DNA of 64,000 nucleotides from Acidimicrobiales bacterium (GTDB lineage: Bacteria; Actinomycetota; Acidimicrobiia; Acidimicrobiales; SKKL01). The notes under the pieces were generated by a model. The model saw nothing but the letters and a program-made list of their open reading frames with translations, made no database searches and was not told where the DNA came from. Positions 16,300 to 23,595 of the stretch are shown here, one piece after another; position 1 is the first letter of the stretch, and each line of letters starts with the position of its first letter. The stretch spans positions 334,165-398,164 of the forward strand of contig JAXHLR010000004.1 of assembly GCA_034521975.1 (NCBI GenBank), given 5' to 3'. A program made the translations under genes and the position numbers.

Positions 16300-18186
16300 A
16301 TGCACCCATCACCGCGCCATGACCAAGTTCGGGGAGGCCACCCGCGGCGGCTCCGGCTCCGAAGCCTGATCCTGCTCGTCGTGCTCCTCCCCACCCTCGG
16401 GATGCTCGCCATGGCGACTGTCTTGGCGAGCGAAGCCCTCACCACCCGAGACAGCGCGCGACGGGTCGATGCGCGTGTCGCGACCCTCGGCGCGCTCGCC
16501 GACGCGAGGGTGGTGCTCGTCAACGAACGAACCACCTCAGGCGTGCTGGTCTTCGCCACCGAGCTCGGCTTCGACGAGGAGGAGCTCCTCGACTTCACGG
16601 GGACCGACCACCGCTCCGAGCTACTGGCGTCCCGAACGGCTGTCGACACGAGCGCCATCCTGCGCAGCCTTCCAGCGATGGCCGACCACCGCTCCCGCCT
16701 GCACGACGTGCGCGAGGCGGTCGACGAGGGGACCGCCTCGAGCTCCCAGGTCGTGTCGATCTATGACGACCTCACTGCCGCGGTCGACCAGGCGTGGACC
16801 GACGAGTTCGACCAGCTCCAGGACGACCTGCGATCCGGGGAGGTCACCGGTTCGCTCCAGAACCGAGCCGGTGCGCTGCGCGCGGCCTTCGCGGCCCAGC
16901 GGTGGGGGATGACGCAAGCGTCGTTGGTGATCGAGCTGTACGAGACCGAGACGTCCGACCCCGCGACTGAGATCCAGGTGATCGCAGCAGGTGCCCGCTA
17001 CCATGCGGCGGTCGAGACCCTTGAGGATGTCCGCGGCCCCATTGCGAACGAGGTCTGGGACGACTACCTGAGCGACCCCGCCGTCCGACGTTTCGGTCGC
17101 GACCTCGAGGAGGTCGAGGAGGAACTGGTCTCCGGCCCGTCGCTGGTGCTGGAGGACCCGGCCACCTTCCAACAGTCACTCGCCGACGCCGAGGTCTGGG
17201 CCGCGGGACTCGGAGACCTGGTGCGGGCTGCGGCACAGGACCTGAGCACGGAGACCGTCCAGCAGGAGCGCGACGCCGCGAACAGTCTGCAGGTGCGCGT
17301 CGGCGCCGCCGGCGTCCTCACCCTCCTCTCGCTTGCCGGCGCGGTTCTGCTCACGAGGAACATGACCCGTCCGGTCCGGCGCCTCGAGGAGGCGGCAAGC
17401 CAGATCCGGGCTGGCCAGTTCGACCTCGAGCCGATCGAGACCGGCGGGCCACGCGAGTTGGCCGACACCGCGGTGGCGTTCAACGAGATGACCGCCACCC
17501 TCGCCAGCGTGGAGACCTACGCCACCACTCTGGCCGACGCACCCGAGGACCCGTTGCTCGACCACCCCATCCCGGGTCGCACGGGCCAGGCCCTGCAGGT
17601 TGCGCTCAACCGGCTGCGCTCGTCGATCCGCCAGGCCGAGAAACGCCGAGGGGAGCTCGAGGTGGTGGCGACCCACGATGCCCTCACGGGACTGTTCAAC
17701 CGCTCCGCTGCGTTGACGATGATCGGACACGACCTGGCAGCCGCCGAGCGCTCCGACGGTGCGGTCATGGCGCTGTTCATCGACCTCGACGAGTTCAAGC
17801 CCATCAACGACCAGTACGGCCACGCCGCCGGCGACGATGCCCTCCGCCTCGTCGCCGATGCCCTTCGCGAGACCACGCGCGAGGCCGATGTCGTCGCCCG
17901 TATCGGTGGTGACGAGTTCCTCGTCGCCGGCGCGGTCGCCGACGATGCTGGCGAGGTCGAAGGCCTCGCCGAGCGCATCCGCGACGCGATCGGGTCCACC
18001 CGACTCGGCACCGTGGACGGACCGATCGGTCTGCACTGCAGCATCGGCATGGCCCTGAGCCTTCCCGGCGACAGCGTCGACCTGCTCGTCCAGCGCGCCG
18101 ACGCGGCGATGTACGACGCCAAGAAGCAGGGACGCGACCGCATCGCCTGGGCCCGGTCCGAGCGAATGAGGCCCTCCCAGCCCTAG
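16300..18186 (+). CDS. Membrane diguanylate cyclase with periplasmic sensor and HAMP domain
   Basis: Makes c-di-GMP from two GTP at the membrane. The 628-residue layout is TM1 about 22-43; an extracytoplasmic helical sensor about 44-331 of the nitrate/nitrite-sensor-like type; TM2 about 332-351; HAMP (MTRPVRRLEEAASQIRAGQF); then a GGDEF domain from about 452. The active site GGDEF is at 536-540, preceded by READ five residues earlier, an RxxD product-inhibition site. Both sites appear intact, so an active and feedback-inhibited cyclase is predicted. The ligand is unknown. The probable c-di-GMP riboswitch lies 4.7 kb downstream. Confidence 0.92.
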   Translation: MHPSPRHDQVRGGHPRRLRLRSLILLVVLLPTLGMLAMATVLASEALTTRDSARRVDARVATLGALADARVVLVNERTTSGVLVFATELGFDEEELLDFTGTDHRSELLASRTAVDTSAILRSLPAMADHRSRLHDVREAVDEGTASSSQVVSIYDDLTAAVDQAWTDEFDQLQDDLRSGEVTGSLQNRAGALRAAFAAQRWGMTQASLVIELYETETSDPATEIQVIAAGARYHAAVETLEDVRGPIANEVWDDYLSDPAVRRFGRDLEEVEEELVSGPSLVLEDPATFQQSLADAEVWAAGLGDLVRAAAQDLSTETVQQERDAANSLQVRVGAAGVLTLLSLAGAVLLTRNMTRPVRRLEEAASQIRAGQFDLEPIETGGPRELADTAVAFNEMTATLASVETYATTLADAPEDPLLDHPIPGRTGQALQVALNRLRSSIRQAEKRRGELEVVATHDALTGLFNRSAALTMIGHDLAAAERSDGAVMALFIDLDEFKPINDQYGHAAGDDALRLVADALRETTREADVVARIGGDEFLVAGAVADDAGEVEGLAERIRDAIGSTRLGTVDGPIGLHCSIGMALSLPGDSVDLLVQRADAAMYDAKKQGRDRIAWARSERMRPSQP

Positions 18187-22795: not shown

Positions 22796-22937
22796 CCTAG
22801 TTGCCAGCAGCCCGAGACGCCCGCCGTGGCGATCTCAGGGGGCGCGAGAGAACTCATCACGTCCTTCAGGAATCGGTAACGCCGGCGGTCCCCGGTGCGT
22901 TCCCCCTGTTGAGTGGATCACTCCGATCGCTCCTTCC

Positions 22938-23012
22938 AAGCCGAACAGGCAACCCGTCAGCGATGACGGCAAGCAACGCCACGGGCCTCCCCGAGGCATC
23001 CGGGCTACCGAA
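22938..23012 (+). promoter_or_regulatory. Probable class I cyclic-di-GMP (GEMM) riboswitch
   Basis: The stretch has the order of elements of the GEMM-I aptamer: ACAGGCAACC; a perfect 6-bp stem CCGTCA/TGACGG (22954-22959, 22964-22969) closed by a GCGA tetraloop; the joining segment AAGCAACGCCACGGGCCT; a second hairpin GCCTC/GAGGC (22985-22989, 22993-22997); then ATCCGGGCTACCG. Published consensus features (GNRA-capped P1b, GACGCAAAGCC-like junction, GCCxCGGGxCU, CCGGGUUACCG) line up with these. A Shine-Dalgarno GGAG (23015-23018) follows within 8 bases and the ATG is at 23026, so control of translation is likely. CTCC at 22930-22933 could pair with that GGAG. Confidence 0.8.
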
Positions 23013-23025
23013 CTGGAGACACCTC

Positions 23026-23595
23026 ATGATGATCACCGAATTCCTCGCAGGGCTCGCCCTGACCACCAAGATCGCCGCGGTCACCGGCGCCGTGGCCGTC
23101 ACCGGCGCCGCCGCAGGAGCCGCCGGGGTCCTGCCCACCCAGGCAGAGTCCACGATCGAGGCTGACGTCGAGGCCGAGGCCGAGGTCGAGGTCGAGACCC
23201 CCGCCGGGCCGGCTGATGCGGACACCGTCACCACCCCGGAGGCTGCCAAGTTCGGCACCGCCGTGGCCGAGACGGCCCGCGAAGGCGGCGTCGACGGTCC
23301 CTCGATCGCAGCCGAGGCACGCACCCAGGGACAGGGCGGCGCCGATCAGGCGAACAGCACCCCGGCCGCGGACCACATCCCCGACGGCACTCCGACAGGT
23401 CCGCCGGACTCGCTGCCGGCCGAGGCTGACACCCGGGCCGAGACCGACACCCGGGCCGAGACCGACACCCGGGCCGAAGCCGAAGCCGAAGCCGAAGCCA
23501 AGGTCGAAGCCGAGGTCGGGACCTCCTCGACCCCCGAGCTCGACGAGATCCCCGACGATCTCGGTTCCGGAGTCGCCCCCGGTCCCAGGGGCTGA
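23026..23595 (+). CDS. Acidic low-complexity membrane-anchored or secreted protein under riboswitch control
   Basis: A 189-residue protein. Residues 1-37 form a hydrophobic signal or anchor (MMITEFLAGLALTTKIAAVT onwards), followed by a Glu/Ala/Val-rich stretch (43-60), a short ordered-looking part (KFGTAVAETAREGGVDGPSI, 75-94) and a repetitive acidic tail with ADTRAET-type repeats and AE dipeptides (133-165). It has no cysteines and no enzymatic motif. ATG at 23026 after GGAG is clear. The probable c-di-GMP riboswitch directly upstream suggests a role in surface, adhesion or lifestyle change, but that is inference. I do not recognise the family. Confidence 0.8.
   Translation: MMITEFLAGLALTTKIAAVTGAVAVTGAAAGAAGVLPTQAESTIEADVEAEAEVEVETPAGPADADTVTTPEAAKFGTAVAETAREGGVDGPSIAAEARTQGQGGADQANSTPAADHIPDGTPTGPPDSLPAEADTRAETDTRAETDTRAEAEAEAEAKVEAEVGTSSTPELDEIPDDLGSGVAPGPRG
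23428..23516 (+). repeat. Tandem 18-bp then 6-bp coding repeats
   Basis: GACACCCGGGCCGAGACC occurs at 23428-23445 and 23446-23463, with a third partial copy from 23464. It runs into four GAAGCC units and degenerate GAAGCC/GAGGTC-like units. The unit lengths keep the reading frame and encode the DTRAET and AE repeats of the acidic protein. Such tracts usually vary in copy number by slippage. Confidence 0.9.

Follow-up and report, generated by a model that had tools for sequence, protein, structure and literature searches.

Introduction

Riboswitches are usually taught as 5′-leader elements, and those GEMM-I variants that sense cGAMP carry the substitution G20A. Among ECF sigma/transmembrane anti-sigma operons, SigD-RsdA is presumably the nearest described relative of the genes considered here. 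The ligand-contact positions of the c-di-GMP-I (GEMM-I) aptamer Vc2 are G20, A47 and C92, and its interhelical pair C44-G83 has been called universally conserved (PMC4744006), a pairing also given as conserved in PMC3764141. GTAACG is quoted as the SigD consensus (PMC8583896).

We analysed a window, a stretch of 64,000 nucleotides from an Acidimicrobiales bacterium (GCA_034521975.1, contig JAXHLR010000004.1, positions 334,165 to 398,164, forward strand), in which an RNA element of the GEMM-I kind precedes the gene of an acidic membrane or secreted-type protein. Our main reading, to which we give a probability of about 0.72, is that the element is a c-di-GMP-I aptamer of an A44 subclass, placed in the leader and gating the GGAG beside it, and that its relatives are intragenic and most likely control an internal start.

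Identification of a c-di-GMP-I element in the window

The features of the locus, all on the + strand, are as follows.

22875..22901, +, putative SigD-like ECF promoter GGTAACG-N16-CGTT (-35 GTAACG at 22876-22881, -10 CGTT at 22898-22901)
22939..23013, +, predicted c-di-GMP-I (GEMM-I) aptamer of the A44-U83 subclass (RF01051, RF03167, R1, R2; R1/R2 envelope 22935-23016)
22948, +, equivalent of G20, c-di-GMP contact (alignment column mapping; contact residues per PMC4744006)
22954..22969, +, P1b/P2 hairpin CCGUCA-GCGA-UGACGG with GNRA loop, covarying across relatives
22972, +, equivalent of A44 (alignment; C44 in 58/60 other elements, A in 25/25 intragenic copies)
22975, +, equivalent of A47, which intercalates in c-di-GMP; an A, hence not the GGC variant (alignment)
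22978..23005, +, P3 hairpin GCC-A-CGG-GCCUC...GAGGC-AU-CCG-GGC (R1/R2 matches, folding)
22999, +, equivalent of U83 (canonically G83), potential A44-U83 interhelical pair (alignment)
23008, +, equivalent of C92, c-di-GMP contact (alignment)
23015..23018, +, Shine-Dalgarno GGAG adjoining the aptamer 3′ end (sequence; SD-like there in most intragenic relatives)
23026..23595, +, target gene, 189 aa, ATG at 23026 or 23029, with a hydrophobic segment and an acidic Ala-rich tail

An earlier sequence-only reading had recognised a 75-nt element with the GEMM-I landmarks in order, namely a 6-bp stem (CCGTCA-GCGA-TGACGG), AAGCAACGCCACGGG, a second hairpin and CCGGGCTACCG, and the model match at 22939-23013 (+) bears this out; the GNRA-capped stem and the second hairpin with its two-base bulge are both present. 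The check it had proposed, a search with the Rfam c-di-GMP-I covariance model RF01051, returned 38.9 bits against a curated cut-off of 35, the sole match of that model genome-wide. The best Rfam match at these positions was RF03167 (c-di-GMP-I-GGC; 38.5 bits, E=1.1e-7), which did not reach its cut-off of 59. A scan of the entire window at Rfam gathering thresholds listed nothing, probably because this better-scoring, sub-threshold clan member displaced RF01051; relaxed and single-family searches did detect the element.

A lineage model (R1) was built from 33 aligned related elements, with the window and sister-species elements left out, and its consensus fold shows double changes in 13 of 17 pairs. 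On the 64-kb window R1 gave one match only, at 22935-23016 (+) with 61.5 bits and E=6.6e-18, so the element is not a chance match. Taken together, the models identify it by sequence as a genuine c-di-GMP-I class aptamer with a putative ligand and switch direction. The Shine-Dalgarno and start codon were also placed correctly: GGAG occupies 23015-23018, and the ATG said to lie 16 bases after the element is the second one (23029), the first being at 23026. No stop codon interrupts the reading frame of the target across the aptamer (ORF 22801-23595). At 16300-18186 (+), 4.8 kb from the element, lies the gene of a HAMP-GGDEF protein, a probable membrane diguanylate cyclase, and this nearby protein makes c-di-GMP synthesis in the host plausible, no more.

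RF01051 matches above the cut-off occur in 23/148 genomes of the order. The canonical elements there precede CAP/SCP-like secreted, type IV pilin-like and glycosidase-like proteins and also a TasA/SipW-like pair, all judged by eye and without profile search. One canonical element (L164, G014:C41) stands before the gene of a TasA/camelysin-like protein, behind which comes a signal-peptidase-like ORF, again judged by eye. In the sister species the A44-U83 element (L054, 1497-1578) precedes a TadE gene (PF07811). If the protein behind the window element is a surface or secreted one, it is in line with these targets.

The target protein belongs with anti-sigma-like proteins

The target protein had been described as having a hydrophobic N-terminus and an acidic, Ala-rich tail without known family. 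The composition was confirmed (20% Asp+Glu, 22% Ala), and Pfam and NCBIfam gave no family above cut-off for the protein encoded at 23026-23595. The protein is nevertheless homologous (E 8.7e-11 to 2e-9) to the membrane-plus-extracellular half of a set of ECF anti-sigma-like proteins. These relatives were found by whole-genome protein search, the general genome-contig and viral-contig collections having yielded none, and they too match no Pfam or NCBIfam family and no Pfam anti-sigma domain. Upstream of 22935 the window encodes no anti-sigma N-terminus, the putative sigma-binding part, and no ECF sigma gene lies next to the target, whose neighbours are glyoxalase-like, luciferase-like and CinA genes. 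Homology gives the target a place in a family: it corresponds to the membrane/extracellular half of the anti-sigma-like proteins, without their N-terminal part.

Relatives of the element lie within coding sequences

Two relatives of the element, L191 and L192, were first taken as leader riboswitches of a similar protein, until their ORFs showed the elements to be inside the coding sequence. When the L191 ORF served as a protein query, members of its family turned up in 17/248 genomes of the order, and R1 detected a GEMM-I element of 39-55 bits inside most of these ORFs. In the 14 copies with an intact frame the element is always 85 nt long and read in one frame, and in the protein it becomes a linker such as TEKGDLPATAASNVPGPAPQAAGLPKWRKR, which joins an N-terminal, cytosolic-looking part to the membrane segment. 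Wherever upstream sequence sufficed, an ECF sigma gene was found directly upstream of the element-bearing ORFs (Sigma-70 region 4 in 3/3 sigma genes tested), which identifies these ORFs as ECF anti-sigma-like genes.

A second model (R2), made from the 14 intragenic copies only, retrieved further copies with the same ORF architecture, both from additional genomes of the class and from elsewhere in the phylum. Intragenic GEMM-I folds of the A44 subclass thereby amount to at least 25 genes, which are spread over several families of the order and also over other classes. RF01051 itself gives nine matches over cut-off (35-42.5 bits) in 20 loci with intragenic copies, two of the nine in L278. Two or three intragenic A44-type elements stand close together on single contigs (L278, 294-378 and about 1780-1857; G779:C30, 759-2655), and these clusters are perhaps tandem sigma/anti-sigma units.

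Behind the intragenic element Arg is coded by AGA/AGG in 20/25 cases versus 1/20 upstream, creating an SD-like stretch, and in most copies a Met is then present behind it; in some (e.g. L236, L238, L240) the element is not directly followed by an ATG. An internal RNA-gated start would require just such an SD-like stretch with a Met, although their presence is no proof of one. In the open-access literature we found no report of intragenic c-di-GMP riboswitches; they may have been noticed earlier elsewhere.

Selection on the RNA inside the ORFs

To be read as relics, the intragenic copies would have to be conserved for the protein linker only, with the window element an ordinary leader c-di-GMP-I riboswitch. 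Such elements are common in leaders of the order and the window copy lies outside any recognisable anti-sigma region, both of which speak for this explanation, which we consider the likeliest of the alternatives, yet unlikely. Against it stands a comparison with synonymous-codon shuffles in which the protein sequence of each copy was held fixed. In the first set of 14 copies, 263/266 pairs are kept versus 163.7 ± 6.2 in the shuffles. A second set, made up of nine copies from other classes and two more, keeps 201/209 versus 131.6 ± 5.4. Nearly every copy alone beats its own shuffles, the exception being L290, for which 136/3000 shuffles were as good. Over the 25 copies 97.7% of cells pair and 49 cells are changed on both sides (the copies are related, so that these counts are not independent), and the outcome named beforehand as counting against the riboswitch, no significant covariance-model hit and no conserved pairing in homologues, is not what we found. 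The covariation score of the 25 copies is 0.325, as against at most 0.093 with the partners slid.

Also opposed to relics are stem changes that keep the helix while altering the protein (CUGCCG/CGGCAG, CUGUCC/GGACAG, CUGCUG/CAGCAG and CUGGCC/GGCCAG) and a conservation of synonymous sites far above that of the flanks: where the amino acid is identical, the codon is identical in 84% of comparisons within the element and in 51% and 47% in the flanks, overall identity being 0.81 versus 0.45 and 0.39. Real copies could not be told from their synonymous shuffles by minimum free energy (z from -1.8 to +1.0), which we therefore leave out of the evidence. Judging by the other comparisons, the intragenic copies seem to be conserved as protein and as RNA fold alike.

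The ligand-contact residues are intact and the interhelical pair is altered

Mapping of positions on a 62-row element alignment revealed that the window element has G, A and C at the ligand-contact positions 20, 47 and 92. Among the 25 intragenic copies the same residues are found in 25/25 (G20), 24/25 (A47) and 25/25 (C92), with A48 in 25/25 and A44 invariant, accompanied by G83 or U83. One intragenic copy (L288, 1501-1585, minus strand) has A47 replaced by G, the mark of the GGC variant, and a weakened P3.

The pair C44-G83 is not kept in the window element and that of the sister species (L054), both of which have A44-U83; in the window these bases could still pair as A-U. Positions 44/83 are C-G in 57/62 rows and A-G in L191 and L192. 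A canonical-type element (L022, 1498-1590) has C44 yet A83, and its interhelical pair is broken. The canonical sites altered in the window element are A25, G42, C44, A49 and G83. R2 scored the window element at 71.5 bits (E=4.8e-20), the canonical elements tested (L018, L002, L039) at 49.4 bits at most and the sister-species copy more weakly, at 44.5 bits. A tree of the elements groups the window and sister copies with the intragenic ones at a split with support 92/87, which, given the few columns, is not decisive. The earlier call of a c-di-GMP-I riboswitch was right in kind, with the contact residues preserved, and missed that the element is of the A44 subclass and not of the common C44-G83 form, that its nearest relatives lie within ECF anti-sigma-like genes and that the target has a place in that protein family. 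From residues and scores it is best classified as a variant of the c-di-GMP-I class, not a typical member, and the other known members of its subclass appear to lie mostly within ECF anti-sigma-like coding sequences.

The unusual A44-U83 and A44-G83 combinations, together with an RF03167 score on the window close to that of RF01051, could point to a variant with a different ligand, of which GEMM-I has known examples; the ligand would be 3′,3′-cGAMP or an unknown dinucleotide. We regard this as quite unlikely, the residues speaking against it: G at position 20, A and not G at position 47, and C92 intact. The two specific variants were rejected separately, the cGAMP-sensing one on position 20 (G, not A) and the GGC variant on position 47 (A) and on a score below 59.

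A paralogue without the aptamer shares the promoter-like motif

The same genome holds a paralogue of the target (L062/L080, contig C8, 112630-113106) that is 62% identical to it and lies beside an ECF sigma gene. Its leader shares with that of the window gene the motif GGTAACG-N16-CGTT and the next 40 bases, after which the aptamer is entirely absent. The pattern has four matches in the genome, and only those of the window and the paralogue precede the paralogous genes. From its sequence and position the motif is probably a SigD-type ECF promoter. In the simplest history, the membrane half and the aptamer would have become a free gene under a SigD-like promoter, one copy of which lost the aptamer.

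The gene can evidently exist without the aptamer, since the paralogue has the same promoter and protein, and this observation favours the view that the window element has lost its function and is decaying, having been copied along with the membrane half out of an anti-sigma gene. The C49-U90 mismatch in the window and the weaker sister copy (44.5 bits with R2) point the same way, but all three helices of the window element are intact and its interhelical pair reads as a Watson-Crick A-U, leaving decay little chance of being correct. It is highly improbable that a conserved protein linker (TEKGDLxATAASNVxGPAPQxAGLPK) produced the covariance-model match as an artefact and that the RNA has no function: the nearest relatives are coding, with a constant frame and length (85 nt), and the window frame is open too, but many canonical relatives lie in leaders outside such ORFs, no anti-sigma N-terminus is attached to the window copy, pairing exceeds synonymous shuffles in nearly every copy, protein-altering changes hold the stems in L235, L242, L233 and L278, and a pure coding artefact was rejected by synonymous shuffling in two sets of copies.

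Proposed mechanism

The reading of an A44-subclass aptamer that gates GGAG builds on computed results: a conserved fold with its ligand residues intact, the assignment to a subclass, the homology and the intragenic location. From there we infer c-di-GMP as the ligand, control at translation, the ligand as OFF signal, the internal start and the promoter. A SigD-type ECF promoter would transcribe the leader and the aptamer would fold, with c-di-GMP sitting between G20, A47 and C92 of the window aptamer. The state of the closing helix would then determine if the GGAG next to it is available for translating the membrane-anchored acidic protein. Most likely, c-di-GMP would stabilise the closing helix beside GGAG (23015-23018) and lessen initiation at 23026/23029. 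Such OFF switching through P1 over the Shine-Dalgarno is weakly suggested by the data: the pairing probability of the window Shine-Dalgarno is 0.85 free versus 0.80 with the aptamer folded, so that occlusion is not clearly predicted, and conservation of a P1 extension over it is marginal (104/2000 permutations as good).

In the relatives, the same RNA encodes the linker of the full-length protein, and most likely it would also gate a second, internal start just behind it. A fuller proposal, for which we see even odds, is that the intragenic A44 aptamers in several classes of the phylum combine linker code with a ligand-gated ribosome-binding site for the internal start and so set the ratio of full-length anti-sigma to membrane half, the window gene being the second product in free-standing form. 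If this is true, the membrane half made from the internal start cannot bind sigma, and c-di-GMP sets its ratio to the full-length anti-sigma.

The A44 subclass embedded in anti-sigma-like coding sequences is the more interesting result, and the window element is its free-standing relative. A widespread mid-ORF aptamer under protein and RNA constraint would be a new architecture. Such intragenic aptamers would tie c-di-GMP directly to ECF sigma/anti-sigma signalling and would provide an example in which riboswitch-driven internal initiation can be tested. The pair C44-G83, described as universally conserved, is shown to be replaceable in a natural subclass.

Comparison with known systems

With the c-di-GMP-I family RF01051 the window element shares the fold, the GNRA-capped stem, G20/A47/C92 and a score over the cut-off, and it differs in having A44-U83 in place of C44-G83 and its nearest relatives in coding sequences. 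The GGC family RF03167 resembles it in the sequence of P3 and of the closing helix and gives the top Rfam score in the window, whereas that score is 38.5 against a cut-off of 59 and position 47 is A versus the G of the model consensus (GCGAA). As in ECF sigma/anti-sigma operons such as SigD-RsdA, the genes of the target's relatives directly follow ECF sigma genes, and their products combine a cytosolic part at the N-terminus with a membrane segment and an Ala/Pro-rich extracellular part; the -35 GTAACG of SigD recurs in the promoter-like motif of the window. Unlike those operons, the relatives have no Pfam anti-sigma domain and carry the aptamer in the coding sequence, and the window copy differs further in that the N-terminal part is missing.
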